64,000 bases of DNA, from IMG/VR virus record IMGVR_UViG_3300009008_000017, positions 1 through 64,000 of that record; one strand, written 5' to 3'. Within the stretch, counting starts at the first letter, position 1. Each line of letters begins with the position of its first letter. This stretch comes from a virus. The translations under genes and the position numbers were made by a program. Shown here piece by piece: positions 18,928 to 34,421 of this stretch. The notes under the pieces were generated by a model. That model saw only the letters and a list, made by a program, of their open reading frames with translations, was not told where the DNA came from and searched no databases.

Positions 18928-19353
18928 ATGCTTTCATCCGAAGACGTAAATGCGATTGGTCAACTAACCAATACAACCTTTGGTTACTCATCCACAGGTG
19001 AGACCACCTATCAAGTCCCGGCAGGTCGTTCAATCACTTGTAAACTAAGTGGTGAATCCGGCGAAGACCAACTTATAGTTAAGTTCGTCACTGTCATCAC
19101 TTTGCACGAATCTGAAAGAAACCTTTTAGATCCCAAGAATCCGGCAGCGCAGCAAGCAGAGCTCGAATCTATCAAGATGATAAAAGACTACACTGACAAT
19201 CTTAAGAAGTCTTATAAGGATTCGATGGATAAAAGCTTAAAGCTAAAAGAAGTTAGTAGCACAGACAGTATTGAGCTGGTAAACTACAATATTTTTAGCC
19301 CGGTGAGACAAGTATATTACAGACGAAACACGGTCTATAACGTGAGCATCTAA
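18928..19353 (+). CDS. Unknown protein next to terminase (possible small terminase)
   Basis: This 141-residue protein overlaps the large terminase start by one base (TAATGG). The N-terminal half is beta-rich (TTYQVPAGRSITCKL). The C-terminal half has a charged helix of the form ELESIKMIKDYTDNLKKSYK that could be a coiled coil. I see no similarity to T4 gp16. The position makes a small terminase or other packaging accessory possible, but nothing in the sequence proves it. A Shine-Dalgarno-like GAGGT lies upstream of ATG 18928. Confidence 0.55.
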   Translation: MLSSEDVNAIGQLTNTTFGYSSTGETTYQVPAGRSITCKLSGESGEDQLIVKFVTVITLHESERNLLDPKNPAAQQAELESIKMIKDYTDNLKKSYKDSMDKSLKLKEVSSTDSIELVNYNIFSPVRQVYYRRNTVYNVSI

Positions 19354-20957
19354 TGGCTTCTAAGCCAGGAAAACAAGCTCAAGTAAAAGAGATCATCCAG
19401 TGCGGAAAAGACTCTCTTTACTTCATGCAAAAATATGTAAAGATCCAGCATCCCACTAGAGGTTTGATCTCATTTGACACGTTTCCATTTCAAGATGACT
19501 GTGTCACGCATTTTAACGATAATCGATTTAATGTTATTCTCAAGTCCCGACAGCTAGGGCTCTCCACCCTGGTCGCGGCCTACGCATTATGGATGGGGAT
19601 CTTCCAGCGAGACAAGAACATACTGGTTATTGCGACAAAGCTTTCAGTCGCTCAAAACTTCATTAGAAAAGTCAAGGTAATGCTGAGGTCACTACCTCCG
19701 TGGCTTGTATTACCTGAAGTTACCGCTGATAACAAGCAGACAATAGAGTTTAGTCACGGCTCAGTTATCAAGGCTATTCCAACCTCCGATGATGCAGGTC
19801 GTTCTGAAGCGCTGTCGCTTCTCATTATAGATGAGGCCGCATTCGTTAAGAACTTTGATACGCTGTGGATGGGTTTATATCCTACCTTATCCACAGGTGG
19901 TCGAGCCATTGTTCTCTCTACTCCAAATGGCGTGGGCGGTCAATATCATAAGCTCTACACAGAAGCAATGTTAGGTGAGAATGAGTTTAACTCAATTAAC
20001 TTACCCTGGAGCGTGCATCCAGAGAGAGATGAAGAGTGGTTCCAGAGAGAAACTCGCAACATGTCAAAGAGGCAGATTGCCCAAGAGCTTCTGTGTGACT
20101 TTGTGGCATCAGGTGAGACATTTCTTCAATCTGATCATCTTGAGTGGATTAGGGAGAATATTCGAGAGCCAAGAGAAAGAAAATTTGAAGACAGGAATTT
20201 GTGGGTCTGGGAGAACCCATTGTCTGCTCACAAGTATGTAATGTCTGCAGACGTCTCTCGAGGAGATGCAAAGGATTATTCCACATGCCACGTCATCGAT
20301 GTTACGACATCGGAAATTGTCGCTGAATACAAAGGTAAAATACCACCAGATAGATTTGGGGAAATGCTAGATGATCTAGGGCGTCAGTACAACAATGCTT
20401 TACTAGCCCCTGAAAACAACACCTTTGGCTACACTACTGTTATGAAACTAAAAGAGCTTAATTACCCTAATCTTTACTATCAAAAAGCCCGCGGTGTTTA
20501 CCTGGGAAGCTACACACCCCAGTCTGAGAAAGAAGTGGGTGGATTTTCCACGCAAGGACAGTCTCGAGTTCAAATTATTTCTAAGCTCGAAGAGATGATT
20601 CGTAACAAGATGCTTAAGACATACTCACAGCGCCTTTATGATGAGCTTAAAACCTTTGTCTGGAAAGGGCAAAAACCCCAGGCAATGAAAGGCCAGCACG
20701 ATGATCTCGTGATGAGCTTAGCGATTGGAACCTGGCTTTTCGATATATACGGAGGCGGTGGCGGATCGTCTAATTCTGACCTTAACGAAGCAATGATCGC
20801 AGCAATGTCTACGGAGTCTCGTCCTGCCTCTGATCTTTCTCAAGATAGAAGAGCACCGTTCCCTACCAACCCATTCAAACCTGTCCAGCAAGAATCGTGG
20901 GAAAAGGGTAATAAAGGGTTTGACCCTAAGAGAGATTATGACTGGTTGCTTAAATAG
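19353..20957 (+). CDS. Terminase large subunit (gp17-like)
   Basis: This 534-residue DNA-packaging motor starts at ATG 19353. The ATPase domain shows a degenerate Walker A SRQLGLST (65-72), normal for terminases, and Walker B LLIIDEAAF with D160-E161, followed by the coupling motif IVLSTPNG. The C-terminal RNase H-fold nuclease is marked by MSADVSRGDAKDYST and, near the end, HDDLVMSLAIG. It would cut concatemers and pump DNA through the portal encoded by the next gene. Family assignment is firm. Confidence 0.93.
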   Translation: MASKPGKQAQVKEIIQCGKDSLYFMQKYVKIQHPTRGLISFDTFPFQDDCVTHFNDNRFNVILKSRQLGLSTLVAAYALWMGIFQRDKNILVIATKLSVAQNFIRKVKVMLRSLPPWLVLPEVTADNKQTIEFSHGSVIKAIPTSDDAGRSEALSLLIIDEAAFVKNFDTLWMGLYPTLSTGGRAIVLSTPNGVGGQYHKLYTEAMLGENEFNSINLPWSVHPERDEEWFQRETRNMSKRQIAQELLCDFVASGETFLQSDHLEWIRENIREPRERKFEDRNLWVWENPLSAHKYVMSADVSRGDAKDYSTCHVIDVTTSEIVAEYKGKIPPDRFGEMLDDLGRQYNNALLAPENNTFGYTTVMKLKELNYPNLYYQKARGVYLGSYTPQSEKEVGGFSTQGQSRVQIISKLEEMIRNKMLKTYSQRLYDELKTFVWKGQKPQAMKGQHDDLVMSLAIGTWLFDIYGGGGGSSNSDLNEAMIAAMSTESRPASDLSQDRRAPFPTNPFKPVQQESWEKGNKGFDPKRDYDWLLK

Positions 20958-20980
20958 CTTTACAAAACCCACAAAAGATT

Positions 20981-20990
20981 ATATTTATTT
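20981..20990 (+). promoter_or_regulatory. Putative late promoter before the portal gene
   Basis: ATATTTATTT lies 50 bases before the portal start in a 73-base gap. It matches the AT-rich box found before many of the head and tail genes in this window. Activity is inferred. Confidence 0.45.
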
Positions 20991-21030
20991 GACGTAGTGC
21001 TCACTACCTCTAATGTAGGAGCGGCAAAGA

Positions 21031-22926
21031 ATGGCCGAAAACGATAATTTCTTTAATAGGCTCACCAGGCTCTTTAGATCTGGCCCACTTGTTAAGAGAA
21101 AAGTTAAAGCAGCGAGAGCTCCCAACATGGGAACTCTTCTCCAGCAGTTTCAAAAATCTCAAAGTCACGTTTACGCAAACGCGATCAGCGCATACGGGAT
21201 GTACGATCGCATGTCCCGATATGCCGACTTCCAGGAAATGGAAGCAACTCCTGAGATTGCATCTGCTCTCGACATCTATGCAGATGAGTCCGTATCACAA
21301 GATGAGGTCGGACGCTGCTTGCACATCTATTCAGAGAATGATAAGATTAGAAGGGTTTTAGAGGAGCTTTTTTATGACAACCTCAACATCGACTTCAATC
21401 TTAATCCATGGGCAAGAAATCTTTGTAAGTACGGGGACTTCTTTCTCTTTCTAGACATATCTCCAGAATACGGTGTCCTGAACGGGATTCCGATCCCTGT
21501 TAATGAGATCGAACGCGAAGAAGGCTTTGATCCTGATGATCCGATGGCAGTGCGATTCCGGTGGGTAACTCAAGGAAATAAGATTCTTGAGAACTGGCAG
21601 ATCGCCCACTTTAGGCTTTTAGGTAACGATGCATTTCTCCCCTATGGCTCTTCTGTTATCGAACCAGCACGAAGGATTTGGCGACAGCTTATCCTCATTG
21701 AAGATGCAATGCTTGTTTATCGCGTGATTCGTTCACCGGAACGACGGGTTTTTAAAATCGATGTCGGAAACGTTCCACCAGAAGAAGTTCAAAACTACAT
21801 GCAGCAGGCGAAGTCTGCGCTTAGAAGCTCGCAAGTTGTAGACAAAACTACGGGACGTGTCGATCTTCGCTACAACCCGCTTTCAGTTGATGAAGATTAT
21901 TTCCTTCCCGTCCGCGGCCAAGCAGATGGTACTGCTATCGATACACTTGCAGGCGGGCAGAACACCACAGCTATTGAGGATGTTGAGTACATCCAAAAGA
22001 AACTTTTTGCGGCACTTAAGGTTCCAAAGGCTTACTTGGGCTACGACGAAATGCTTAGCTCTAAAGCAACATTGGCCCAAGAAGATATTCGTTTCTCTAG
22101 GACGATCAACAAGGTCCAAAGGGTCATGATATCAGAGCTTAACAAGATCGCAGCTGTTCATCTTTATGCTAACGGCTTTGACGGAGAAGATCTTGTAGAC
22201 TTCACTCTTAAGCTTTCAAATCCATCAACCATAGCACAACAACAAAAGCTTGAGCTCTTTAGAACAAAGTTCGAAATCGCCGGCCAATCACCTGAAGGTA
22301 TGCTTTCTAGAGACTTCTTGAGAAAACGTGTTCTCGGTCTTACAAACGAAGAAATCAAGATGATTGAAGAGCAAAAAGAAGAAGATAAGATGCGTGATCT
22401 GGAGGTTGAAGCTATTACGCTTCCTGAGACTGAAGGTGAAGCTGCATCCCCTGCAGGCATTGACTTAGGCGAGGAAGAACCTGCCCCACCCGAAGAAGAA
22501 GATCTTGAGACAGCACAAGAGAAAAAGGGTGATGACTTACTTTTAGGGACTGATGATGTTCCCCAAGAGGAAGCAGAAGAAAAGCCGGCAAAATCCGAAA
22601 AGCCTGTAAAAGCAAGCTCAAATGTAAAGGGGCCCAACAAGCCACGATCAGCTAACAAAGCGTTTGATGGAAGAGTTTATCAACTGAGGCCGCAAGGTTC
22701 CCCGGGATACACAAGCTCTAAGAAAGAAAGATACATTAATAACAGTCTTGGTGACAAGGAAGCTATTAGCCCAGACTTAAGTGTTAGGTTCGAAAGTCAA
22801 GTGAATAGACAAAACCAGATGTCTGCACAGCTCAAACAGACTTTAAAAAGCCTTGAGAAAAGCATAGGTAATATAGGAAAGTCCTCTGCTTTGCTCGTTG
22901 AGGGAGATAATGATGACGAGACATAA
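21031..22926 (+). CDS. Portal protein (gp20-like)
   Basis: This 631-residue protein fits the T4 gp20 portal family: MEATPEIASALDIYADES near the N-terminus, ARNLCKYGDFFLFLD, and IQKKLFAALKVPKAYLGYDE with SSKATLAQEDIRFSRTI in the stem/wing region. The C-terminal ~170 residues are low complexity and very acidic (Glu/Pro rich), then basic, longer than in T4. It forms the dodecameric vertex through which terminase loads DNA. A good Shine-Dalgarno (TAGGAGCGG) precedes ATG 21031, and a putative late promoter lies 41 bases upstream. Confidence 0.92.
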   Translation: MAENDNFFNRLTRLFRSGPLVKRKVKAARAPNMGTLLQQFQKSQSHVYANAISAYGMYDRMSRYADFQEMEATPEIASALDIYADESVSQDEVGRCLHIYSENDKIRRVLEELFYDNLNIDFNLNPWARNLCKYGDFFLFLDISPEYGVLNGIPIPVNEIEREEGFDPDDPMAVRFRWVTQGNKILENWQIAHFRLLGNDAFLPYGSSVIEPARRIWRQLILIEDAMLVYRVIRSPERRVFKIDVGNVPPEEVQNYMQQAKSALRSSQVVDKTTGRVDLRYNPLSVDEDYFLPVRGQADGTAIDTLAGGQNTTAIEDVEYIQKKLFAALKVPKAYLGYDEMLSSKATLAQEDIRFSRTINKVQRVMISELNKIAAVHLYANGFDGEDLVDFTLKLSNPSTIAQQQKLELFRTKFEIAGQSPEGMLSRDFLRKRVLGLTNEEIKMIEEQKEEDKMRDLEVEAITLPETEGEAASPAGIDLGEEEPAPPEEEDLETAQEKKGDDLLLGTDDVPQEEAEEKPAKSEKPVKASSNVKGPNKPRSANKAFDGRVYQLRPQGSPGYTSSKKERYINNSLGDKEAISPDLSVRFESQVNRQNQMSAQLKQTLKSLEKSIGNIGKSSALLVEGDNDDET

Positions 22927-23746
22927 TAAAAAAAGAAACTCTGGCCTTCTTTACGAGTTTTTAGTAAGAAAGATTTCTCGATCTTTAGTGGAGGGCGACA
23001 ATAGTAGCGCCAACATTTCTAAGAATATTCTAAAAAAATATTTTTCTACTGGGACCGAAGTTCACAAAGAGTACAGGCTTATCAATGCTCTTGTTAATGT
23101 TCCCGTAGGAAGTGAGGCTGTTGCACAAGCAGTTTTACAGGAAGCAAGAAATGCATCACGCAGGTTCGACTCTAAGATGCTGAGGACTGAGAAAGATAAT
23201 TTGATAAGAGAGATAAATCATGAATTTGGGCCTGAGGCAGTCTATGCTGAATCAGTTCCAGACTATAAGTCATATGCTACGGCTTCTACTCTTGTGAAGT
23301 ACTGGAGAGAAGAAAAGGAACTTGATCTTAGTACAGTCGTTAGATACGAAAAAGTTCTTATCGAATCTTTGGCACGCCCCCTTGAAGAAAAAATAATAGA
23401 GGAAGCAGATCCTCAAGTTGACAATCTCGTAGTCAAAGTTGCGACTGATAAGATGCAAAGAAAATATGAGACAAGACTGAATAAAACGCAATCAGATCTT
23501 ATCAATCTTTACGCAGTTGAAAACAAGCACGATGCCACGAGAGAGATGATTGAGGGCATCGTAGAAAGCACGCTGGCAAATTTAAAAGCTTACGGTGCAT
23601 CCCAAAATGAAAGTTTTGCAAGCAAGGTTCAAAGCGTATCTGAAAGCATTAGAAGCCTCAATATCGAAGAAGTCAATGATACCCTTATTGCTAAAACCCT
23701 GGAGATCGTTGAGCTAAATGAAGAATTACAGGGAGCTATAAAATGA
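22913..23746 (+). CDS. Conserved head-module protein, unknown
   Basis: I place the start at ATG 22913, six bases after AGGGAG, rather than at the TTG 15 bases earlier; it overlaps the portal end by 14 bases. The protein (~277 aa) opens with MTRHNKKRNSGLLYEFLVRK and is otherwise helical and charged, with no membrane segment or metal site. I recall similar openings in T4-like phage head modules but no assigned function. It lies between portal and prohead protease, where T4 has prohead core genes 67 and 68, so a prohead core role is plausible but unproven. Confidence 0.6.
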   Translation: MTRHNKKRNSGLLYEFLVRKISRSLVEGDNSSANISKNILKKYFSTGTEVHKEYRLINALVNVPVGSEAVAQAVLQEARNASRRFDSKMLRTEKDNLIREINHEFGPEAVYAESVPDYKSYATASTLVKYWREEKELDLSTVVRYEKVLIESLARPLEEKIIEEADPQVDNLVVKVATDKMQRKYETRLNKTQSDLINLYAVENKHDATREMIEGIVESTLANLKAYGASQNESFASKVQSVSESIRSLNIEEVNDTLIAKTLEIVELNEELQGAIK

Positions 23747-24366
23747 AATTATTGACCGAGTGCATGACATTTGAATATGATTCGAATCTTATTAAAGAGC
23801 AGGCGCAAACTGAGGATGGTAGATTTCTTATGAAGGGAGTTTTGCAGAAAGCAAATACTCTTAACCAGAATGGGCGAGTTTATCCCCTTGATATTCTCCG
23901 GAGAGAGGTGCAGAACTACCAGCGATTTATCGATGAAGGTAGAGCTCTTGGCGAACTAGATCACCCGGATACTTCTGTTGTTGAACTAAAGAATGTTTCT
24001 CATGTAATTCGAGAAGCACATATGGATGGCGACATCTGCTACGGAACTCTTGAGGTCCTAGATACACCGAACGGGCAAATATTAAAGAGCTTGGTTGAGA
24101 GTGGTATCAAGATAGGCATTTCTTCTCGCGGCGTAGGCTCTACGCGAAGCGAAGGCGGCCACCAAGTTGTTCAAGATGATTTCCAATTAATTTGCTGGGA
24201 TATCGTGTCAGAGCCTTCAACACCAGGTGCCTTCGTAATGAAGGAAGGTAGAGACCTAACACCGGATGAGATCGCCCAGGTTCAAGCTTATTTTGGTCCA
24301 GGAGACAAGATCAACCGGATCATGAATTCAATTTTAGAATGGAATGGAGACGCAAATGCCTCTTGA
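23743..24366 (+). CDS. Prohead core protease (gp21-like)
   Basis: This 207-residue serine protease of the T4 gp21/herpesvirus-assemblin type has the nucleophile region IGISSRGVGS and the catalytic His in ALGELDHPDTSVV, in the usual order (His before Ser). It would cleave scaffold, capsid and core proteins during head maturation, typically after a Leu/Ile-x-Glu motif. It overlaps the preceding gene by four bases (ATGA). Candidate substrates in the window are the scaffold at 26607 and the capsid protein at 28060. Confidence 0.88.
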   Translation: MKLLTECMTFEYDSNLIKEQAQTEDGRFLMKGVLQKANTLNQNGRVYPLDILRREVQNYQRFIDEGRALGELDHPDTSVVELKNVSHVIREAHMDGDICYGTLEVLDTPNGQILKSLVESGIKIGISSRGVGSTRSEGGHQVVQDDFQLICWDIVSEPSTPGAFVMKEGRDLTPDEIAQVQAYFGPGDKINRIMNSILEWNGDANAS

Positions 24367-24811
24367 TTACCCAAACTGGGGCGCAGGTGATGTCCCATCT
24401 TACCAACTCTCAGGTGTGCCATTTGTTACATCATCAAATGGTGCTGAAGTGAGCACAACCCCAGTCAAGGTACAATTACCTGGCGTCTCAAGATTTCTAG
24501 TTATTAAAGAAACCGCAGGCCAGGATCTGAGAGTAGGCTTTTCCGTTGCTGGTGTCAACGGCACCGGAGGCGTTTCTGGCTCGGTTCCTACGAATCCAGC
24601 TGGTGGTGAGTCTGCTGCTGACAGAAGAAACTATTTTGTCGTAGAAGCTAATACTACTTCTCCCCGACTAGAGATTAGATGCAAGACCCTTTACTTCCGT
24701 CGCGACGGTTCCTCCGACGCCGGATTTTCCATCATCGCAGGAATCACACCAATAGGTACCAGCCAGTTCCCGCCTCTGACAGGATCCAGCGGATATGACG
24801 GGATCGGATAA
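24356..24811 (+). CDS. Probable head-associated structural protein
   Basis: I choose ATG 24356, which has GGAG six bases upstream; an in-frame ATG at 24344 lacks one. The 151-residue chain is beta-rich and Gly/Ser/Thr-rich, with LPGVSRFLVIKETAG, LRVGFSVAGVNG and ending FPPLTGSSGYDGIG. I recall small proteins of this look in head modules of T4-like phages, but no precise role. It overlaps the protease stop and the next gene's start. Confidence 0.55.
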   Translation: MPLDYPNWGAGDVPSYQLSGVPFVTSSNGAEVSTTPVKVQLPGVSRFLVIKETAGQDLRVGFSVAGVNGTGGVSGSVPTNPAGGESAADRRNYFVVEANTTSPRLEIRCKTLYFRRDGSSDAGFSIIAGITPIGTSQFPPLTGSSGYDGIG

Positions 24812-25227
24812 TGAAATTGACCCGAGCTAAGCTTAAAGATCTTATAAAAGAATGCATTGTTGAAGTGCTAGCTGAAGGGCTTGGTGGAGCAACCTTGACC
24901 GAGGCTTCTGTGAAAGCAAAGCCGGCCAGAAATCATAAGAAAACACACACGCATACTCGGCGCAAGGCTTTGGATTCTATAAAATTCGACCAGCGAGTAA
25001 ATGAGGCTGCATCATCAATGACCGCAGATCCCGTAATGCAATCTATCTTTTCAGATACAGCAAAAACAACCCTTCAAGACCAGCTCCAGCACACGCATAA
25101 TTCTCCTTCCATCCCCCCGGGCGCTGATGCTGCAACACGTGCTGCAGCCCTTTCCACGCCCGAGGATCTTTTTGAAGGATCTTCTAATTGGGCTACCCTG
25201 GCATTTAATGACGGCATCAACAAATAA
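24811..25227 (+). CDS. Small prohead protein with candidate capsid-targeting N-terminus
   Basis: This 138-residue protein starts at ATG 24811, overlapping the previous stop. Its first 22 residues form a basic amphipathic helix (MKLTRAKLKDLIKE onward) ending in VLAEG, which fits the L-x-E cleavage consensus of T4-type gp21 proteases followed by a small residue. T4 delivers internal proteins into the head by such a short N-terminal sequence that gp21 then removes. The rest is polar and His/Thr-rich. Function is unknown; a head-internal protein is my inference. Confidence 0.5.
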   Translation: MKLTRAKLKDLIKECIVEVLAEGLGGATLTEASVKAKPARNHKKTHTHTRRKALDSIKFDQRVNEAASSMTADPVMQSIFSDTAKTTLQDQLQHTHNSPSIPPGADAATRAAALSTPEDLFEGSSNWATLAFNDGINK

Positions 25228-25247
25228 TTTCAAGTTTGTTTTGAGAG

Positions 25248-25256
25248 TATATTTAC
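25248..25256 (+). promoter_or_regulatory. Putative late promoter
   Basis: TATATTTAC lies 27 bases before ATG 25275 in the short gap after the preceding gene. It matches the AT-rich box seen before other structural genes here. Confidence 0.5.
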
Positions 25257-25274
25257 TACCGTTAGGAGAATCCT

Positions 25275-25772
25275 ATGGCACGCAATAAATTTTCTCACAA
25301 TAGCATGGGGAACCTTATAGAGGTTCGAAACCCTTCTAATCCCGGTCTTCCCGGAAATAGAAATGACGCTACGCTTAAAGAAGCTTTCGGATCTTCTCCG
25401 ATCTATTCTCCTGGTGCAGACAATACTGTTAAGAAGCAGTTTGAAAATCTAGTAATGCAAGGTGTCCTTGTAGGGGAGGGCCGCAAAGGATCTGGTTTTG
25501 GATTTTCCATTTTTAATAGAGACTTTGTCGATGCTCCTGAAGTTGAGGGAGTTGAGAAAGATAACAGTGGAGCCGCCGTGGCAAGTCCATACGTTCCTAA
25601 TGTTGCATCACCAAACTCTTCGGGACAAGTTGAAAAAGTTGTTGTTCCAAACCGACCTGCAGGCGGAGATTTTGTAGGTGACAGCTTAAGAGATCCAAAA
25701 AGCACCTCGGCAGATATTTCTAACGTGAAGATAGGTTCTTATGGTCTTGGCGTAAGCTCAAACCAGAGTTAA
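25275..25772 (+). CDS. Unknown head-module protein (165 aa)
   Basis: Starts at ATG 25275 with AGGAGA seven bases upstream, behind a putative late promoter. The sequence is Gly/Ser/Asn/Pro-rich, with little predicted regular structure and no recognised motif. It is flanked by prohead genes and probably cotranscribed with the next three genes. It could be a minor head or core protein, but no function can be assigned. Confidence 0.55.
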   Translation: MARNKFSHNSMGNLIEVRNPSNPGLPGNRNDATLKEAFGSSPIYSPGADNTVKKQFENLVMQGVLVGEGRKGSGFGFSIFNRDFVDAPEVEGVEKDNSGAAVASPYVPNVASPNSSGQVEKVVVPNRPAGGDFVGDSLRDPKSTSADISNVKIGSYGLGVSSNQS

Positions 25773-25781
25773 TATTTTTTA

Positions 25782-26345
25782 ATGTCAGCACTTTATGAAG
25801 CATACGTAAGCTTTCCGCGCTATGACGCACGAAGCGGGCTTGGTTATGGTGCTGCAGATTCTGCTGTAAAACCAGGCCTATCAGTCGGAAAACCGATGTC
25901 AATGCCTGGGCTCTATCCCTACAAAGAGCCTCCCACAGACGTCGATGACGACGGAGAAGACCTTCCCGCCAAGGACAAAAAGAAGGTAATTAATAAAGTG
26001 GGTGGCATTACTCGTATTAACGATCCTTTTTCTAGTAACTGGGTAGATAGAGGCGCTTTTGTTAACTGGGCAACTCGCCTTGATTTATACGAAGCAAGAA
26101 ACGCAGTAGACTTAGAGGACGTTGTAAGAGGACTCGAGGGAAGTAGTTCAACAGGTGGCATGAGTCAATTTGTTGCTATGGGAAATGGGGCGGGAATTTA
26201 TAAGACCCGGTATGGAAAAACAATAGGAATGGATATAGGCGGCAGGCCACAATCATATTCTGCGACAAAGACAACAAAGAAGATACCTCCATCTTTATCA
26301 GACTTTATCAAAGACTATCTAAGGGATGAAGATGAAGAGATCTAA
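25782..26345 (+). CDS. Unknown head-module protein (187 aa)
   Basis: ATG 25782 follows the previous stop by nine bases without a strong Shine-Dalgarno. The chain begins MSALYEAYVSFPRYDARSGL, has an acidic/basic switch near residue 50 (DVDDDGEDLPAKDKKK) and ends in an acidic tail. No recognised domain. Its last 14 bases overlap the small bS21-like gene, suggesting coupled translation. Unknown function. Confidence 0.55.
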   Translation: MSALYEAYVSFPRYDARSGLGYGAADSAVKPGLSVGKPMSMPGLYPYKEPPTDVDDDGEDLPAKDKKKVINKVGGITRINDPFSSNWVDRGAFVNWATRLDLYEARNAVDLEDVVRGLEGSSSTGGMSQFVAMGNGAGIYKTRYGKTIGMDIGGRPQSYSATKTTKKIPPSLSDFIKDYLRDEDEEI

Positions 26346-26559
26346 GAAGTTTCCCGCAGAATATGGTGTCGTTGTAAGGTCTAGACCAAGAGAAAGTACC
26401 GACAAATTAATTGCCCGTTTTAAGAGGATGTATAAGCGCTCTGGGTTACAAACTGAAGTAAGAGAAACGTATATGCAGCGCTTTATGTCAAGATCAGAGA
26501 AAAAGAGAATGAAAAAAAATAGAGCAAAGAGAAGGGCTCTGAAAAACAGCAAAGGGTGA
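26332..26559 (+). CDS. bS21-like ribosomal protein
   Basis: This is a very basic 75-residue protein. AGGG six bases upstream favours ATG 26332 over the ATG two codons earlier. The pattern is that of bacterial ribosomal protein S21: VVRSRPRESTDKLIARFKR, MYKRSGLQTEVR, then a Lys/Arg-rich helix SRSEKKRMKKNRAKRRA. In E. coli S21 the corresponding parts are ALRRFKRSCEKAG, then VRRREFYEKPTTERKRAKA. Cellular bS21 sits near the 3' end of 16S rRNA and aids initiation. Phage-encoded bS21 is known from pelagiphages and huge phages. Here it lies between prohead genes, so it is likely made late. The alternative is a basic prohead core protein that resembles S21 by composition. Confidence 0.72.
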   Translation: MKRSKKFPAEYGVVVRSRPRESTDKLIARFKRMYKRSGLQTEVRETYMQRFMSRSEKKRMKKNRAKRRALKNSKG

Positions 26560-26576
26560 TTTTTTCTTCGAATAAT

Positions 26577-26586
26577 CATATTTAAC
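26577..26586 (+). promoter_or_regulatory. Putative late promoter before scaffold
   Basis: CATATTTAAC lies in the 38-base gap before the scaffold gene, 30 bases from ATG 26607, and matches the recurrent AT-rich box. Confidence 0.5.
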
Positions 26587-26606
26587 AGTGTAGATGGGTG
26601 AGGACT

Positions 26607-28028
26607 ATGACCAGTAATCTCTATGAAGAAGCCATTGCAGATGCTCGAAAGTTACGTGAGATAGCTGAGCAAAATGCTAAAAATGCGATCATTGAATCGA
26701 TAACACCAAAAATTCGTGACTTAATAGAATCCCAAATAATTGGGGACGAAGTGGATTTTGACGAATCTGATATCATAGAAGAAACAGCTGCTCAGGCTTC
26801 TCAAGATGATGATCAAGAATTCGATATGACTCCCGAAGCTGCGCAAGAGCTCAGGACCATGCTTGAAAACGATTCGCCTGAAGAGCAGGACGCTCCACCC
26901 GATCCCAATAGCGAAGAAGCTTCAATAGTTTCTTCTGCCGCTTATATCAAAGAATGCAATGAGTACATCGAGACAGTCCGCGAAGTACTCGAAAAAGTCA
27001 GGGGAACTAACCCGGCTGAACTTAATGAACAGGACTTACAAAAATATTTGGCTCTGGTCGCAATATCAGACCGAGCAGTTAATAAATTATCCGAAATGAT
27101 GGCAACCGCCGAAGGTATGCAAATCTTCGAAGGTGTCATCCAGAACTCTCAAGATCAGATTCACAACTTTAAAAAGGAGATAAAAGAAATGAAGAGATCA
27201 CTAAGGGACCTATTGTCCGAGGAAGTTATAACCATAGAGCTGGATCTCGGTGAGGATGCCGTAGTGGATTCTGAAGAAATCTCAGTTAAGGTTAAAGAAG
27301 AAGAGCCCCCACTTATCGACGCCGAAGCCGGCGAAGACGAAGAAGAGGGCGACGAAGATGTCGATGTCGAAGAAGTCGATGTCGATGTCGATGTCGATGT
27401 CGAAGAAGACAAAGTCAAAGTCGGAGAGCTTGAAGAGATGATCCTTGAGCTTGAAGAGGAAGAGGAAGAGGAAGAAGACATGGAAGAAGATGACATGATG
27501 GAAGGCCTCGACGACGACACTGTTCTTGAAATTGACGAAAACATGCTGCGCGAGGAGCTCGCTAAGATTATGCAAGAAAGCGAAGAGTCCGCAGAAGAAG
27601 TTATTGAAGAAGCCTCGGAAGAGGAAGAAGTATTAGAAGAAACGGCCGAGTCAGTCGCCACCGAGCAAAATGACGAACTCCAAGCCGAGATAGAGAGCTA
27701 TCAGAGCGCAGTTGCTGACCTCCAGTCACAACTCGCCGAGATGAGCTTGTTTAACGCGAAGCTGCTCTACACCAATAAGCTGCTAATGAATAGCGATCTC
27801 AGCCAGACCCAACGGGCACAGGCCATAGAAACGCTCGATGACGCCGCAAGCTTGCGAGAGGTGAAGCTTCTATTTAAGACTCTTACAGAGTCATTTAGTA
27901 AGCGCGCAGAGGATAAAACATCTTCTCGCAATATCGGCGGCGCAAGTCGTCCAACCAAGTCTGCATCAATGAACTTGAATGAGTCCACCGAGGCTAATCG
28001 ATGGGCATTGCTGGCAGGCATAAAGTAA
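26607..28028 (+). CDS. Prohead scaffold protein (gp22-like)
   Basis: I prefer ATG 26607, with GGTGAGG just upstream, over the GTG three codons earlier. The 473-residue protein is strongly acidic and almost entirely helical, with a central run of alternating Asp-Val and Glu clusters (residues ~250-325) and a C-terminal coiled coil (~350-420). Its position directly before the major capsid gene and after the protease module is that of T4 gp22. The scaffold forms the prohead core and is degraded by the gp21 protease. Assignment rests on composition, helical character and synteny rather than conserved residues. Confidence 0.75.
   Translation: MTSNLYEEAIADARKLREIAEQNAKNAIIESITPKIRDLIESQIIGDEVDFDESDIIEETAAQASQDDDQEFDMTPEAAQELRTMLENDSPEEQDAPPDPNSEEASIVSSAAYIKECNEYIETVREVLEKVRGTNPAELNEQDLQKYLALVAISDRAVNKLSEMMATAEGMQIFEGVIQNSQDQIHNFKKEIKEMKRSLRDLLSEEVITIELDLGEDAVVDSEEISVKVKEEEPPLIDAEAGEDEEEGDEDVDVEEVDVDVDVDVEEDKVKVGELEEMILELEEEEEEEEDMEEDDMMEGLDDDTVLEIDENMLREELAKIMQESEESAEEVIEEASEEEEVLEETAESVATEQNDELQAEIESYQSAVADLQSQLAEMSLFNAKLLYTNKLLMNSDLSQTQRAQAIETLDDAASLREVKLLFKTLTESFSKRAEDKTSSRNIGGASRPTKSASMNLNESTEANRWALLAGIK
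27357..27401 (+). repeat. GTCGAT hexamer tandem repeat in scaffold gene
   Basis: Near-perfect tandem GTCGAT/GATGTC hexamers, at least four consecutive perfect copies from 27375, encode alternating Asp-Val in the acidic tract of the scaffold. The DNA-level perfection suggests recent slippage expansion. Confidence 0.8.
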
Positions 28029-28059
28029 AGAAAACTTTAAAATCTAAGGGAGATTTATA

Positions 28060-29976
28060 ATGTCTAAGTTTTCACTCGAAACGCTAGCCGAAGGAATTCG
28101 GTCGCGTCACATGGGTGAGGAGAACTCCCGCTTGGTCGAAAAGTGGTCTCGCACCGGTCTGCTCCGCGGCCTGGAATCAACAAAGCGCGAAAACATGGCG
28201 CGCCTTCTTGAGAACCAGACTGCAGAGCTTCTTCGTGAGCAAAGCACAATCGGCACAGGCGGCGGAGCTGGCACCGCTTCTGGTGACCTTCGCGGTTTCT
28301 CCAATATCGCCTTTCCAATCGTTCGTCGTGTATTCGGCGGACTTGTCGCAAATGAGCTGGTATCCATCCAGCCCATGAGCTTGCCTTCTGGCCTGCTCTT
28401 TTATCTTGACTACACCTACGGTTCTAACGTTGGTGGTGACGCATCTCTCACAACGGGCGATGCAGGAACCTACGACAAAGAAACGTATCAGCGTGGTCAA
28501 TCCATCTATAACAACCCAACTGGCAAGGGCGTACGCTCTGGTTCATTGGCAACAGGCGGTCAGTATGACTTGGTCGGTGCAACTTACTCTAAGGTGCACA
28601 GCTCCTCGATCTCACCAACCGTTATGTTTGCTGGTGCACACGGTGCAAACTCATCCTTGACATCCGGTTCGTTGTGCCATGCCACAGGTTCAGATGCTAA
28701 GTTGCTCCAATTCGATCCTCAAGTTCTTGACTTGATCGAAAACGATCCCGGTCTTGACGGTGATGGACGCTTCTGCATCGTCATTGTGGACGTCACTGAT
28801 GCACCCTTTAACAATGTCGATCTTACGAACGCCAAGGACATTTCCTTGTTCTCAGCAGTTCCTGAGGTTCGTACAGGTGTTAAAGAGCTTGGTGCTAGCT
28901 TCCAGGGCGGCAAAGGTATTCTTAACCTCCGTCGCTTGAACCAGCTTGGTACGTTTGCGAACAACAAGTTTACCGCAGATCCCATGGTAACAAGAAGCAC
29001 ATCAAATGCTGCTCTCTTGACAGTTATGTCTGGTAACTTCAGCGGTAAAATTGATGCCGGTGATGCTGCTACAGCATACCTCTCAGCATCATATGCCATT
29101 GGCCCAACATTGAATGTAGAAGACGGTTCTGGTTCTACCCTTACCATTCCTTCATTCGAATCTGATTTCGGTACTACACCTTCACCAGTGATCCCTGAAA
29201 TCGACATTAAGGTTGAGTCCATCGCAGTTACAGCTGCTACACGCAAGCTGAGAGCTCGTTGGTCGCCAGAATTGGCACAGGACCTTAACGCATACCACAG
29301 CCTTGACGCTGAGGTTGAGTTGACACAGATCCTTTCTGAGCAAGTTGCTCTTGAAATCGATCGTGAAATCCTGAATGACCTGCTTAGCGAAGCCCAGGGC
29401 GCAAACCTTTACTGGTCACGTGCTCCAGGCAAGTTCCTGAACAAGGAAACAGGCGCCGAAGTTAAGTTGAATGACAGCTTATCTGCAGGTCCTCGTTTCA
29501 CAGGCACAGTTCGCGAATGGTACGAGACCCTGGTCGAGTCCGTTATCGATGTTGCTAACACCATCCACCGCAAGACACTCCGTGGTTCCGCGAACTTCGT
29601 GGTCACCTCTCCGGATGTCTGCACAATGTTCGAAGCTTCAGTGATGTATCGCCCAAGCCTCAGCATTGACAGCGAAGGTCAGGTTTCCTCCCCATTCAGC
29701 CTCGGTGCTGAAAAGGTTGGTACCTTGAGCAACCGCTTTACGGTCTACAAGGACCCATACTTCCCTCGCAACAAGATTCTTGTTGGTTATAAGGGTGGTA
29801 GCTACCTTGAGACAGGATACGTTTATGCTCCGTATGTTCCGCTGATCGTCACACCAACGATCTTCGCGCCAGAAGACTTCACCCCTCGTAAGGGCGTGAT
29901 GACTCGCTACGGCAAGAAGATGGTTCGCGCTGACTTCTACGGTACCGTTACGGTTGCTGACTTGAACGTCATCTAA
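28060..29976 (+). CDS. Major capsid protein (gp23-like)
   Basis: This 638-residue protein has the gp23-type pattern: a helical N-terminal delta region, then FPIVRRVFGGLVANELVSIQ with PMSLPSGLLFYLDYTYG, and C-terminal SSPFSLGAEKVGTLSNRF followed by ILVGYKGGSYLETGYVYAPY. T4 gp23 is 521 aa, so about 110 residues are extra, probably within residues ~110-330. A likely protease site is LLRE/Q around residue 63, matching the T4 gp23 cleavage position. A clear GGGAG precedes ATG 28060. An intrinsic terminator follows. Codon use is richer in C-ending codons than in neighbours, as expected for a highly expressed gene. Confidence 0.92.
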   Translation: MSKFSLETLAEGIRSRHMGEENSRLVEKWSRTGLLRGLESTKRENMARLLENQTAELLREQSTIGTGGGAGTASGDLRGFSNIAFPIVRRVFGGLVANELVSIQPMSLPSGLLFYLDYTYGSNVGGDASLTTGDAGTYDKETYQRGQSIYNNPTGKGVRSGSLATGGQYDLVGATYSKVHSSSISPTVMFAGAHGANSSLTSGSLCHATGSDAKLLQFDPQVLDLIENDPGLDGDGRFCIVIVDVTDAPFNNVDLTNAKDISLFSAVPEVRTGVKELGASFQGGKGILNLRRLNQLGTFANNKFTADPMVTRSTSNAALLTVMSGNFSGKIDAGDAATAYLSASYAIGPTLNVEDGSGSTLTIPSFESDFGTTPSPVIPEIDIKVESIAVTAATRKLRARWSPELAQDLNAYHSLDAEVELTQILSEQVALEIDREILNDLLSEAQGANLYWSRAPGKFLNKETGAEVKLNDSLSAGPRFTGTVREWYETLVESVIDVANTIHRKTLRGSANFVVTSPDVCTMFEASVMYRPSLSIDSEGQVSSPFSLGAEKVGTLSNRFTVYKDPYFPRNKILVGYKGGSYLETGYVYAPYVPLIVTPTIFAPEDFTPRKGVMTRYGKKMVRADFYGTVTVADLNVI

Positions 29977-30004
29977 GCGACAATAGAAACTTCGGTTTCA
30001 TGAA

Positions 30005-30034
30005 GGGGAGTCCGAAAGGGCTCCCCTTTTTTTT
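30005..30034 (+). terminator. Intrinsic terminator after major capsid gene
   Basis: A 9-bp stem (GGGGAGTCC with GGGCTCCCC, one T-G pair) closed by a GAAA tetraloop is followed by eight T residues. It lies 28 bases after the capsid stop. Confidence 0.92.
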
Positions 30035-30068
30035 GTCTCTTTATTTCCTTAAGATTCCAGCACGGGAA

Positions 30069-30167
30069 CATATCTAATAGTAGGCCCGTCACATTGCATA
30101 AGGGTGAACTCGCCACCGTGCCGGAATCATGCGAACAAAATAAAGGAGAAAATTATGCCAAAGGTTA
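30069..30167 (+). repeat. 99-bp direct repeat, copy 1 (promoter-leader cassette)
   Basis: Identical over 99 bases to 30612-30710. It begins with CATATCTAATAG, close to the late-promoter box of this phage, runs through a ~75-base leader and the Shine-Dalgarno AAAGGAG, and includes the first 13 bases of the gene (ATGCCAAAGGTTA). The leader can fold: TTGCAT (30094-30099) with ATGCGAA (30129-30135) enclosing GGTG/CACC. Confidence 0.95.
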
Positions 30168-30523
30168 TTATTTCTGATGATAAAGGTCTGAACCAAACCG
30201 CAGGTTCGGGGCTGGAGTCTAGGAGCGCTCACTATAGTAGCTACGGGACTACTACAGCTTTAGCAACAGGTTCTTTCCCGCTTCTTCCTGCGGGAATAGT
30301 AAACACTGTTGACAGCACTAACAACGCACATGGTGTTAGATTGCCCAACGCTGCAGGAGCAGGTCAGATCATGATCGTTAGAAATGTAGACAGTGCTCAG
30401 GACTGCGTTATTAGAAATCAAGCTGAGACAGGTGCCATCCTTGTCACGCTCGGCGAAGGTAAGACTGCTCTTTTCGTAAGTACAGCTTCTGGAAATAACT
30501 GGTCTGGAAGTCAGCTCGACTAA
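30155..30523 (+). CDS. Small capsid-associated protein, cassette 1 (122 aa)
   Basis: ATG 30155 lies six bases after AAAGGAG. The N-terminus MPKVIISDDKGLNQTAGSG is shared with the next cassette (MPKVTYSDSKGLVQTSGAG), while the remainder differs. It is a beta-rich, Gly/Thr/Ala-rich soluble protein with LPNAAGAGQIMIVRNVD and a final NNWSGSQLD. The location directly behind the capsid gene, a strong ribosome site, a leader with late-promoter box and its own terminator all fit an abundant head decoration protein. The function is inferred from context; I do not recognise the fold. Confidence 0.6.
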   Translation: MPKVIISDDKGLNQTAGSGLESRSAHYSSYGTTTALATGSFPLLPAGIVNTVDSTNNAHGVRLPNAAGAGQIMIVRNVDSAQDCVIRNQAETGAILVTLGEGKTALFVSTASGNNWSGSQLD

Positions 30524-30551
30524 AAGAAAACTCAAAAGTGTTATTGCAATC

Positions 30552-30577
30552 AAGGTGCTCAATCGAGCACCTTTTTT
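30552..30577 (+). terminator. Intrinsic terminator after cassette 1
   Basis: Perfect 9-bp stem AAGGTGCTC/GAGCACCTT with loop AATC, followed by a T run. Confidence 0.92.
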
Positions 30578-30611
30578 GTTTGAATATTTTCTTCTTTTTT
30601 AAGATCTTCCC

Positions 30612-30710
30612 CATATCTAATAGTAGGCCCGTCACATTGCATAAGGGTGAACTCGCCACCGTGCCGGAATCATGCGAACAAAATAAAGGAGAAAATTATG
30701 CCAAAGGTTA
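30612..30710 (+). repeat. 99-bp direct repeat, copy 2 (promoter-leader cassette)
   Basis: Identical to 30069-30167, 543 bases downstream. It again supplies promoter-like box, leader, Shine-Dalgarno and the first four codons to a different small gene. Base-perfect identity in a non-coding leader implies recent duplication, gene conversion or strong constraint. Confidence 0.95.
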
Positions 30711-31144
30711 CGTATTCAGATTCGAAGGGGCTCGTCCAGACGTCAGGTGCTGGGATGGCTCTAACCGGCTTCATGCATGGTCAAAAATGCCCACAGAAGT
30801 CGGTAACAAGCACAGACACGCTTACTGTTGAAGACAGTGGCAAGTTAATTACCCTGACGGGATCAGCATTTACTTTGTCGCTGCCCAGTGTCTCAGCGGC
30901 AAAAGGATGCCACTATACGATCGTTGCTGGTCAAGCTGCGAATTATGTCCTTTCTGAGCTCGTCGGAACTGACGACAACGTTTTGACGATGGTAAGCGTA
31001 AATGCGTCTGCTACTGAAAGAGATCACGCTTTTACCACAGCTACTCTGAGTGGCGGAGCTATCGGAGACAGGTTTTACGCCGTCTCTAACGGAACTTGGT
31101 GGGTCATCACGGCCTTCGCCAATGCTGCCGTAGCCGCCGCATAA
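30698..31144 (+). CDS. Small capsid-associated protein, cassette 2 (148 aa)
   Basis: ATG 30698 uses the same leader and ribosome site as cassette 1. Residues 1-20 are clearly related to cassette 1; the body (LTLSLPSVSAAKGCHYTIV, GDRFYAVSNGTWWVI, Ala-rich end) differs and is beta-rich. The pattern suggests a common N-terminal anchor joined to different exposed domains, as expected of head decoration proteins. No family is recognised. It is followed by an inverted repeat and a strong terminator. Confidence 0.6.
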   Translation: MPKVTYSDSKGLVQTSGAGMALTGFMHGQKCPQKSVTSTDTLTVEDSGKLITLTGSAFTLSLPSVSAAKGCHYTIVAGQAANYVLSELVGTDDNVLTMVSVNASATERDHAFTTATLSGGAIGDRFYAVSNGTWWVITAFANAAVAAA

Positions 31145-31153
31145 TATAGTGGT

Positions 31154-31178
31154 TGACAGCTAAGACTTAGTACTGTCA
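31154..31178 (+). other. Nested inverted repeat before terminator
   Basis: TGACAG - CTAAGACTTAG - TA - CTGTCA: an inner 5-bp palindrome with a single central base, flanked by a 6-bp outer inverted repeat. It lies between the cassette 2 stop and the terminator. It could be an operator or an RNA processing hairpin. Confidence 0.6.
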
Positions 31179-31190
31179 CACTAGAAGAGA

Positions 31191-31222
31191 AAGGCGCCCC
31201 CAAGTGGGGCGCCTTTTTTTTT
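31191..31222 (+). terminator. Intrinsic terminator after cassette 2
   Basis: Perfect 10-bp stem AAGGCGCCCC/GGGGCGCCTT with loop CAAGT and a nine-T run. Confidence 0.94.
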
Positions 31223-31258
31223 GTTCGTTTTTTCGTCTAGACCTAAGTCTCGTGACTT

Positions 31259-31269
31259 CATACTTATAC
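31259..31269 (+). promoter_or_regulatory. Putative late promoter before neck genes
   Basis: CATACTTATAC, one substitution from the CATATTTAT box, lies 34 bases before the first neck gene and directly after a strong terminator, so a promoter is needed here. Confidence 0.5.
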
Positions 31270-31292
31270 TGTGAGAGTTTCTGGAGAGCCTT

Positions 31293-32465
31293 GTGGCAAC
31301 ATTCGCTAATACAACTAACCCAACACCATTCGGTGCTTTTGATAGTGACTCAGAGTTTCAATCTGAAGCAGACAAGATGGTTACTTTTGTTAAGAGGAAG
31401 CTCGGAGATGACATTCTGTCTGTCGAGTTGACCAAAAAGCAGATCTGGGCTTGTTTCGAAGAATCTTTCTTCCAGTACGGGCAGATTGTTAATGAATACC
31501 AAGCTAGGTCACAATTATCGACTTTTTTAGGGACTTCAACTGGAAGCATGTCGGGATCTGAGCAAAAGTTCCCGCATGAGACACTGCAGTTCTTAGAGAG
31601 GATGGCAGAGCCCTATGCCTTTGAAGCAGGTGTAGGAGGCTCGTACGACTCAGTCTCAGGATCGATTCAGCTAATCAAAGGCCAGCAAGATTATGACATT
31701 TACGATAAGCTACAAGATGATTCTGGAAATTTGTTGTATTCTTCGTCTCTCAATACCTACAGTTCCAAAATGAAGATTCAAGAAGTTTTCCACTTCAATC
31801 CCCAAGCAGCATATCGATTCTTCGATACAACCTCAGCTATCAATTACCTTAATAATGAATTTTCTTTTGAGTCTTTCACCCCGGAAACTATCTTTTATGT
31901 TCTCCCTGTTTTTGAAGATATCTTGAGGGCAGGGCAAATGGATGTTTCCCACCGTGTACGAAGATCTAATTATTCTTTTAAGGTGATCGGAACCAAGATA
32001 AGAATCTACCCAACGCCTTCAGGAGATCAGACTAATCGAAAACTATGGATAAGAGTGGCATTTGCACCTGACCCCCTTAACCCCTCTTACGGGGATGATA
32101 CAATATACGGTGTATCCAATTTATCCAATGTTCCCTTTGGAGATCTTACTTATTCTAACGTAAATTCAATAGGTCGTCAATGGGTAAGGCAGTATGCACT
32201 TTCTCTTTCTACAGAGCTTCTGGGCCTGGTAAGATCTAAGTTCAAATCTTTACCAATACCAAATGCAGATATCCAGCTTGATGGAGATAATCTGATATCA
32301 CAGGGAAGAGAAGATAAGAAAGAGCTGGTTACAAAGCTCCGTGAGATGCTTGATTCTCTGACGTATGATAAGATTATTGAGATGAACGCTATCAAGGCCG
32401 AGAATATACAGAAACAACTTAGAACCATTCCGATACCTAACGGTAATGCAATTACAATGGGTTAG
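31293..32465 (+). CDS. Neck protein (gp13-like)
   Basis: GTG 31293 follows GGAGAG with good spacing. The 390-residue protein contains KRKLGDDILSVELTKKQIWA, YDIYDKL and a C-terminal helix-rich segment. Position after the capsid module and before sheath genes, and the general pattern of T4-like neck proteins, suggest the gp13 role of closing the filled head and providing the tail-docking site. T4 gp13 is shorter (309 aa). Assignment is by context and overall resemblance; catalytic motifs do not apply. Confidence 0.55.
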   Translation: MATFANTTNPTPFGAFDSDSEFQSEADKMVTFVKRKLGDDILSVELTKKQIWACFEESFFQYGQIVNEYQARSQLSTFLGTSTGSMSGSEQKFPHETLQFLERMAEPYAFEAGVGGSYDSVSGSIQLIKGQQDYDIYDKLQDDSGNLLYSSSLNTYSSKMKIQEVFHFNPQAAYRFFDTTSAINYLNNEFSFESFTPETIFYVLPVFEDILRAGQMDVSHRVRRSNYSFKVIGTKIRIYPTPSGDQTNRKLWIRVAFAPDPLNPSYGDDTIYGVSNLSNVPFGDLTYSNVNSIGRQWVRQYALSLSTELLGLVRSKFKSLPIPNADIQLDGDNLISQGREDKKELVTKLREMLDSLTYDKIIEMNAIKAENIQKQLRTIPIPNGNAITMG

Positions 32466-33143: not shown

Positions 33144-34355
33144 ATGACTGTAAGACAATCAATTACGAATCCATCTCTCAATCCTGCGAATAAGCAGGAT
33201 AGAATTAATTCTGGGCTAGAGGGACAAAACATTCCTGATGATTTTTATCTTCCTCCGTGCGGCCTAGAGGATATCGATCGAGCGCTCTTTGATCTCTTTG
33301 ACAAAGAAATACAGTTTGCTATTACACAAAATAATGAAACTAGAAAAGTACCAGTAGTCTTCGCGACGGGAGAAAGATTCGCTCTTATTAAGCGGAATGA
33401 GCCAATCAGAGATGAAAACGAGGCTCTGATTTTACCCCTCATATCCATACGCAGAACTGGCATCGACCAGGCTGCAGGCTTTGAAAGGCTTGCAGACACG
33501 GGTGACCTGGTTATTAAAAGAAGATTAAGCAAAAGAGATCCCATTTATCAAAACCTAGTAAATCCAAAAAATATTAGAAACCAAGATAATGTGAGATCCG
33601 AGGAGCATAATGCAAATGCTACCAATCCTATCTCCGCTAAGCCGGGCACTGTTAATTCTCGACGCCTCCCTGTAAAAACAGCCTCAGGAGGGCCAGTTCT
33701 TTCTAATTCTCTTGATTCTCATCACATCTATGAGATCATTACCATACCTTTTCCTCATTTCATTAACGTGAGTTACGAGGTGACATTCTGGACATCTTAC
33801 ACTCTACATATGAATAACATGATTGAGAAGCTCGTGGGATCTTACACGGGCAACAGAAATCAATTTAAGATAACTTCCGATAAGGGGTACTGGTTCGTAG
33901 CGTACCCAGACAATACAGTCACAAATCAAGATAACTTTGATGACTTCACCAACGATGAAAGAATTGTAAGGTATAGCTTTAACATGCAGGTACCAGCTTA
34001 CATCGTCGCATCAGAAAACTCAGGCGATATGCGACCATTCAGGAAGTTTGTATCTGCTCCTGATCTCGCATTCGAGGTATTCACAGCAAATGCGCCAATC
34101 GTCCAACATCCTCCTGGATTACCCGATCCTACGGGCGATATCGATCAATTTATTTTAAGCGATGTCAACAATATAAACTCTGCCGGAGATATCGTTGAGA
34201 ATGATCGATTATCGTACTTAAAAGCCCAGGCTAGAATAAGAAATCCTTTCACTGACGAGGATGAAATTGAGTATTTAAAAGTGCTCACTCAGAACCAAAG
34301 ACAGGGCGAGACAGTTGTCAGCGCCCGGATAGTTACCAAGATCGAAGATCTGTAA
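33144..34355 (+). CDS. Tail completion / sheath stabiliser (gp15-like)
   Basis: This 403-residue protein starts at ATG 33144, five bases after the previous stop. The central region HHIYEIITIPFPHFINVSYE and TFWTSYTLHMNNMIEKL, then DKGYWFVAYPDN, resembles the family of T4-like proximal tail sheath stabilisers (gp15), which cap the tail and join it to the neck. Position directly before the sheath genes agrees. It is longer than T4 gp15 (272 aa), with a disordered insertion around residues 150-185. Confidence 0.58.
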   Translation: MTVRQSITNPSLNPANKQDRINSGLEGQNIPDDFYLPPCGLEDIDRALFDLFDKEIQFAITQNNETRKVPVVFATGERFALIKRNEPIRDENEALILPLISIRRTGIDQAAGFERLADTGDLVIKRRLSKRDPIYQNLVNPKNIRNQDNVRSEEHNANATNPISAKPGTVNSRRLPVKTASGGPVLSNSLDSHHIYEIITIPFPHFINVSYEVTFWTSYTLHMNNMIEKLVGSYTGNRNQFKITSDKGYWFVAYPDNTVTNQDNFDDFTNDERIVRYSFNMQVPAYIVASENSGDMRPFRKFVSAPDLAFEVFTANAPIVQHPPGLPDPTGDIDQFILSDVNNINSAGDIVENDRLSYLKAQARIRNPFTDEDEIEYLKVLTQNQRQGETVVSARIVTKIEDL

Positions 34356-34377
34356 GGTGATATTTGGCAGAAAGAAG

Positions 34378-34388
34378 CATATTTATAG
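34378..34388 (+). promoter_or_regulatory. Putative late promoter before sheath gene 1
   Basis: CATATTTATAG lies 44 bases before the first sheath ATG, in a 66-base gap. It is one of the best copies of the recurrent box. Confidence 0.55.
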
Positions 34389-34421
34389 GCGTGCATAAGA
34401 GTCCTGTAGGAGACTGAACAT

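Follow-up and report, generated by a model that had tools for sequence, protein, structure and literature searches.

A diverged bS21-type ribosomal protein gene at an optional site in the head operon of a marine T4-like phage

We showed that a marine T4-like phage, represented by IMG/VR record IMGVR_UViG_3300009008_000017, carries among the genes of its head a short gene whose product, judged by sequence comparison, is a diverged homologue of ribosomal protein bS21 (hereafter S21) from a family that is clearly bS21. The window, i.e. the whole 64,000-base stretch analysed here (64 kb), is part of this virus record of 98,085 bases. We assign a probability of roughly 0.7 to the reading that this diverged phage bS21 is synthesised along with the capsid proteins, becomes part of host 30S subunits and supports or biases late translation initiation. 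Comparison with related phages points to an optional gene, which would have been gained and lost at one fixed place or, alternatively, would have diverged past detection. The relevant features of the window are as follows:

21031..22926, + strand, T4-type portal gp20 (PF07230, 1.2e-76)
23743..24366, + strand, T4-type prohead protease (PF03420, 6.4e-25; phrog_207, 1.3e-52)
25782..26345, + strand, gene for a 187-aa protein upstream of S21, with a 14-base overlap between its 3' end and the S21 start
26321..26325, + strand, AAGGG ribosome site of the S21 gene, within the 3' end of the upstream gene
26332..26559, + strand, gene for the bS21-like protein (75 aa, pI 11.65; alternative start ATG 26326)
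26607..28028, + strand, presumed scaffold (gp22-like) gene directly 3' of S21, named from position and pI 4.05
28060..29976, + strand, major capsid protein gp23 (PF07068, 6.5e-75)
30002..30029, + strand, terminator-like hairpin just 3' of the capsid gene (12-pair stem plus T run; consensus match only)

In the window sequence the S21 ORF begins with the ATG at 26332 and its stop codon ends at 26559, where the sequence-only reading had placed a protein of 75 aa, and the two motifs named in that reading (RFKRMYKRSG and VRETYMQRF) are both present in the product. An alternative in-frame ATG at 26326 would give an S21 of 77 aa; the start at 26332 is favoured, because the AAGGG site (predicted duplex with the anti-Shine-Dalgarno sequence, -5.1 kcal/mol) is better spaced for it. 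The embedding of the gene among head genes was likewise confirmed: the portal and protease genes lie upstream, with four other ORFs between the latter and S21, gp23 lies downstream, and this placement is common to relatives. With a terminase gene also detected in the window (tblastn), S21 lies near protease, portal, terminase and capsid genes, the neighbourhood by which a late phage bS21 is recognised.

The product of 26607..28028 is presumed to be a scaffold from its position and acidity. Its ORF can be aligned with the ORFs at the same place in the related loci L006, L007, L011 and L013 and in Microcystis phage Mel-JY01, while searches of the product with Pfam and PHROG profiles gave no confirming match, and a profile comparison with the scaffolding protein of pelagiphage HTVC008M returned a probability of 0.3%. 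The likelier start of this gene is the ATG at 26607 (predicted Shine-Dalgarno (SD) pairing of -7.1 kcal/mol) rather than the GTG at 26598 (-2.9 kcal/mol), and the gap between S21 and the scaffold gene is therefore 47 bases; the 38 bases reported earlier apply if the GTG is used.

The homology to bS21, as initially proposed, is supported by the Pfam match, by profiles of the family occupying the same place in the head operon (the slot) and by a profile search of the PDB. The window S21 matched PF01165 with 25.5 bits (1.1e-5, model positions 2-54 of 55) and TIGR00030 (NCBIfam S21p) with 21.6 bits (1.4e-4); the homology is significant, as the earlier reading expected of a profile search, but the single sequence stays below both curated cut-offs (27 and 28.95 bits, respectively), which are annotation thresholds and no biological feature. 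It also matched the S21 family phrog_21469 of PHROG (1.3e-3), and its best single-sequence match in the PDB was E. coli bS21 (0.0075). Five records with S21 at the slot were searched against PF01165: those of L007, L008 and L013 gave 56.6-58 bits, and the other two, near-copies of the window, 24.8 bits. The viral relatives L007-L014, which have a scaffold-like gene downstream and gp23 too where the contig extends that far, are 37-45% identical to the window S21 (six aligned), and the octapeptide KKNRAKRR stands in register between the window S21 and the slot proteins, 14 of 15 of which matched PF01165 at E 0.01. Searched against the PDB, a 10-row profile found bS21 at 8.7e-11, and with the 15-row slot profile rows 1-28 of 30 were bS21 (best 8.2e-13). 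The bS21 of F. johnsoniae (7jil) was the weakest of these 28 rows and ranked seventh with the 10-row profile.

A profile made without the window's subclade scored the window S21 at 28.5 bits, whereas 2000 shuffled versions of it reached at most 11.5 bits, and the match is therefore not compositional. When 1645 stop-to-stop frames from the 98-kb record were scanned, that of S21 scored 22.7 bits and the runner-up 6.8. No match was obtained by tblastn of the window S21 against 50,697 phage records; annotated phage S21 genes were reached with the sister protein L007 as query. The dN/dS of the S21 gene was low, about 0.12 against L004 and 0.135 against L006 (the latter value is rough, because dS = 1.18), similar to that of gp23 (0.12 and 0.165, respectively).

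Like cellular bS21 proteins (E. coli, plastid and others), the window S21 is basic and contains the same 55-aa domain. Proteins of the window subclade differ from them in an N-terminal extension of about 12 aa and in an inter-helix turn longer by 1-2 residues, and the C terminus of the window S21 is shorter than that of E. coli bS21. The KP[ST] turn, which is common in bS21 but not established as essential, is absent from the window S21 and from L004/L006; it was present in all 25 fetched bacterial loci, a sample biased by the KP-containing search peptide. The altered turn is probably what lies behind the sub-threshold score of the window S21. Since KP[ST] is gone and the turn holds 1-2 extra residues, binding to the 30S subunit should not be taken for granted. 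The slot S21s of L089, L090, L091 and L092 have longer basic N-terminal extensions, with KS replacing KP, so that the turn has changed across the clade of the window's phage.

The AlphaFold model of the window S21 consists of three helices (mean pLDDT 71). Foldseek with this model listed no bS21 among its 7 rows, and VIA-align, run with 8 chains, returned a single row, chloroplast bS21c (Z 4.3, 64 residues, rmsd 6.8), a level of match which, according to the program's warning, can be mere common arrangement. With the model of the sister protein L013, the top 8 Foldseek rows were small ribosome chains (E 0.004-0.07, none under 0.001); 8rd8_NV, 8fmw_U, 4ybb_AU and 5mmj_u are named as bS21 in the PDB profile search, and 6ypu_v, 8g7q_u, 8ekc_u and 9fco_U are unnamed there. 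At the level of predicted structures, the window S21 model is weaker than that of its sister.

Five near relatives (L002-L006) have the same gene order around S21, including an orthologue of the 187-aa gene at the matching place. Window positions 19353-32465 (13,113 bases) are 100% identical to part of IMG/VR contig G001 (235,681 bases). Two further short segments of G001, 186666-186775 and 148301-148328, match DNA from the head region at 72% and 93% identity. Contig G001 also carries a tmRNA gene at 34087-34408 (L023 14087-14408; RF00023, 137.8 bits; tag ANDDFDIYAIAA), so that this type of phage has another gene linked to translation besides S21, as well as tRNA-Met(cat) (L022 5198-5274) and tRNA-Ser(gga) (L030 12131-12218). 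The 98-kb record that contains the window yielded no tmRNA, and no tRNA was detected in the window or the remainder of that record.

A search with L013 as query fetched 26 loci, 8 of which were contigs already seen. A scaffold-like and/or capsid gene followed S21 in 12 of them, three had the protease upstream and no detected scaffold, four had Hsp20 with or without CobS, recalling the surroundings of the HTVC008M gene, and the remaining seven had none of the sought neighbour genes. In LR756508, S21 (40.4 bits to PF01165) lies immediately 5' of a scaffold-like ORF, and no protease match was found within the 16 kb fetched. Genomes of the GTDB scanned with the 10-row profile yielded 83 pattern stretches and no confirmed relative; scanned with L007 they gave 25 loci, mostly of Omnitrophota, from which no host is deduced because exact peptides such as ERQYYTKP had been used to retrieve them.

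The distribution of the gene was examined among the relatives of the capsid gene, namely the best 80 of at least 599 pattern matches. In 53 of these loci the sequence 5' of the capsid gene is longer than 2400 bases, and these were evaluable; in the other 27 it is at most 2400 bases long. S21 was present at the slot in 16 of the 53 and was not found there in 37, four rounds of profile searching having added none. All 10 evaluable loci with capsid identity of at least 77% have S21 (several are near-copies), and the capsid proteins of the 37 relatives without it are 64-72% identical. When 28 records of the 80 loci were scanned whole with the slot profile, S21 was found in six, each time at the known slot, and nowhere on the other 22 (19 of them evaluable at the slot), all of which may be fragments. 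The record of Flavobacterium phage immuto, which has a related capsid gene, gave no PF01165 match.

A capsid tree was built from 59 rows, five of which, including the window's own (= L084), were dropped for identical capsids. The resulting 54 rows comprise 16 with S21, one of them (L148) being not evaluable and retained because it shows an S21, a choice that gives the S21 side one extra row. On this tree the presence of S21 requires at least 7 changes, three of which well-supported branches make unavoidable, compared with 14 for shuffled labels; in the group to which the window's phage belongs (support 84/93), 12 of 15 rows have the gene. Since S21 is optional in relatives, it does not appear to be a fixed part of head assembly.

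Late timing of S21 is suggested by the gene order and by the terminator-like hairpin after the capsid gene. Production together with the capsid proteins is likewise suggested, because 44 of the 45 large ORFs of the window lie on one strand, S21 starts inside the previous ORF and the hairpin follows the capsid gene. Weak terminator-like sites occur within the head region at 21729 and 25387; in total, 19 terminator-like sites were counted against 13.7 at shuffle level, and 26 sigma-70-like sites against 21.4 in shuffled sequence, i.e. near shuffle level. Late promoters of the T4 type have the consensus TATAAATA. No such sequence was found on the + strand of the window, and two were found on the - strand against 1.4 expected; a looser form gave 4 sites, all on the - strand, against 8.25 expected. 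Downstream of the capsid gene, ORFs 30104-30523 and 30647-31144 share the N-terminus MNSPPCRNHANKIKEKIMPK and are flanked by terminator-like hairpins at 30002, 30552 and 31184; this pair is a duplicated small-gene cassette.

The suggestion that many late mRNAs of this phage have TTG/GTG starts or poor ribosome sites found little support. Among the 45 non-overlapping ORFs of at least 100 aa in the window, 39 start with ATG, 3 with GTG and 3 with TTG, counts that lean to ATG since the start rule prefers an ATG within 25 codons. Predicted SD pairing of -4.5 kcal/mol or stronger was found for 27 of the 45 genes, compared with 3 of 45 for a control stretch, with a sharp dip for 9-base stretches beginning 12-15 bases before the start. 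Pairing was strong for the capsid gene (-8.4 kcal/mol) and the scaffold-like gene (-7.1 kcal/mol), and 18 genes fell short of the threshold, including terminase (-2.0 kcal/mol) and the 187-aa gene (-2.4 kcal/mol). These data do not support S21 as an aid to mRNAs whose ribosome sites are poor, and the protein does not look like a device for weak sites, because most genes of the phage have strong SDs. Among relatives, SDs are no weaker where S21 is present: the mean fraction of genes with a strong SD was 0.74 in 12 loci with S21 and 0.65 in 33 without (Mann-Whitney p 0.066, uncorrected for kinship). This comparison covers 45 of the 53 evaluable loci; L083, L087, L088 and L092 were omitted because of duplicate capsid proteins, and L114, L121, L146 and L154 under no stated rule, the first three being near-copies on the tree.

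Late incorporation into host 30S subunits is the likeliest function of S21. The protein would be produced together with the capsid proteins, dock on host 30S subunits at the exchangeable bS21 site near the 3' end of 16S rRNA, displace the host bS21, and keep or bias initiation while structural proteins are being made in a late burst. The idea of ribosome replacement by phage S21 has already been published (PMC6375957, PMC9723584). The bS21 of HTVC008M enters E. coli 70S ribosomes (Mizuno 2019, PMC6375957), and E. coli ribosomes containing it show in vitro translation at about 5% of the control (PMC6375957). Since the ribosomes with viral bS21 were almost inactive, a preference for phage mRNA is unproven even for this model case. 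Authors working on Francisella describe effects of bS21 composition on gene expression and suggest that bS21 may act on subsets of mRNAs (PMC9578407). Many phages carry bS21 genes, but the accessible literature on phage bS21 yielded no test of its role during infection.

Phage S21 genes beside capsid genes have already been described, and the window is a further example. HTVC008M is likewise a marine myovirus with T4-like head genes and a phage bS21; its bS21 is encoded some 16 kb away from the capsid gene, flanked by the genes for CobS and Hsp20, whereas S21 lies inside the head operon here, and the HTVC008M protein scores 65.7 bits to PF01165 compared with 25.5 for the window S21. In Microcystis phage Mel-JY01 (PP395634.1), a gene annotated as RpsU comes second after the protease gene; its strand agrees with the window, as does the order, with protease, one small gene and S21 followed by genes toward the capsid gene. 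In contrast to the window S21, this RpsU lies above the Pfam cut-off (44.9 bits to PF01165) and retains a KPS turn; in addition, two extra genes separate it from the gene at the scaffold position, and none does so in the window. According to Chen 2022 (PMC9723584), lake phages infecting Bacteroidetes have bS21 within a few genes of terminase, portal, protease and capsid genes, as observed here, and transcribe it with structural genes. In the five clades of that study, however, bS21 lies on the strand opposite to the head genes, whereas the window S21 is on the same strand and overlaps the preceding gene; the hosts of those phages usually lack SDs, whereas the window phage uses them. The lake-phage proteins keep an aromatic residue at Tyr54 (PMC9723584). 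In pelagimyophages, S21 is one of the core genes and belongs to no specific cluster (PMC7029224).

The position of S21 would also fit an internal prohead or virion protein, a small bS21-derived basic core or DNA-binding part that assembles along with the acidic scaffold and may be cut by the protease. A scaffold-like gene comes directly after S21 in relatives of the window, in members of the L007 group and in LR756508, a very basic protein (pI 11.65) is encoded beside a very acidic one (pI 4.05), the KP turn has been lost, and Chen 2022 (PMC9723584) raises virion packaging alongside ribosome replacement. We nevertheless consider this reading unlikely, as the slot shows no S21 in the 37 evaluable relatives mentioned above (among the best 80 of at least 599), the 22 S21-less records, possibly fragments, carry none elsewhere, and immuto lacks a PF01165 match. 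T4-type prohead proteases cleave at [LI]xE. No such site occurs in S21, against 1 to 25 in each of 9 other proteins scanned, which is weak evidence because S21 is short; the stricter [LI]xE[AGS] is absent both from S21 and from one neighbour, a 155-aa protein. A combination of the two roles, in which S21 would be captured in the prohead via the acidic scaffold, injected and loaded onto the ribosomes of the next host, seems very doubtful; if true, the virion would carry a ribosome part ahead of any phage translation.

S21 might instead be a bS21 mimic that binds ribosomes, poisons host initiation and shuts off host translation. The reduction of E. coli in vitro translation by viral bS21 and the missing bS21 turn residues in the window copy are consistent with such an inhibitor, but its gene would then be expressed from the head operon, when the phage presumably needs active ribosomes, and the published inhibition may, according to its authors, reflect host mismatch (PMC6375957); this makes the proposal quite improbable. 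That S21 is no bS21 at all, but a Lys/Arg-rich protein matching by composition, could be argued from its scores below the curated cut-offs and from the Foldseek list without bS21. This is hardly credible in view of the gap between the true and shuffled scores, the return of bS21 by the slot profile and the in-register KKNRAKRR common to it and proteins of the slot, among which three come from records above the Pfam cut-off; the shuffles and the PDB search with the slot profile largely refute it.

To conclude, a phage bS21 incorporated late into host 30S subunits remains the preferred reading of S21. The S21-bearing phages analysed here do not have weaker SDs than their S21-less kin, which weakens one proposed rationale for such proteins. 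Models of bS21 takeover in SD-using hosts therefore need another benefit, such as supply of an exchangeable protein, resistance to shut-off or selectivity in the mRNA path. The accessible literature on phage S21, prohead and scaffold contained no description of this exact optional slot. The lineage offers a natural comparison, in which close relatives share the same head operon with or without S21 at a fixed site.
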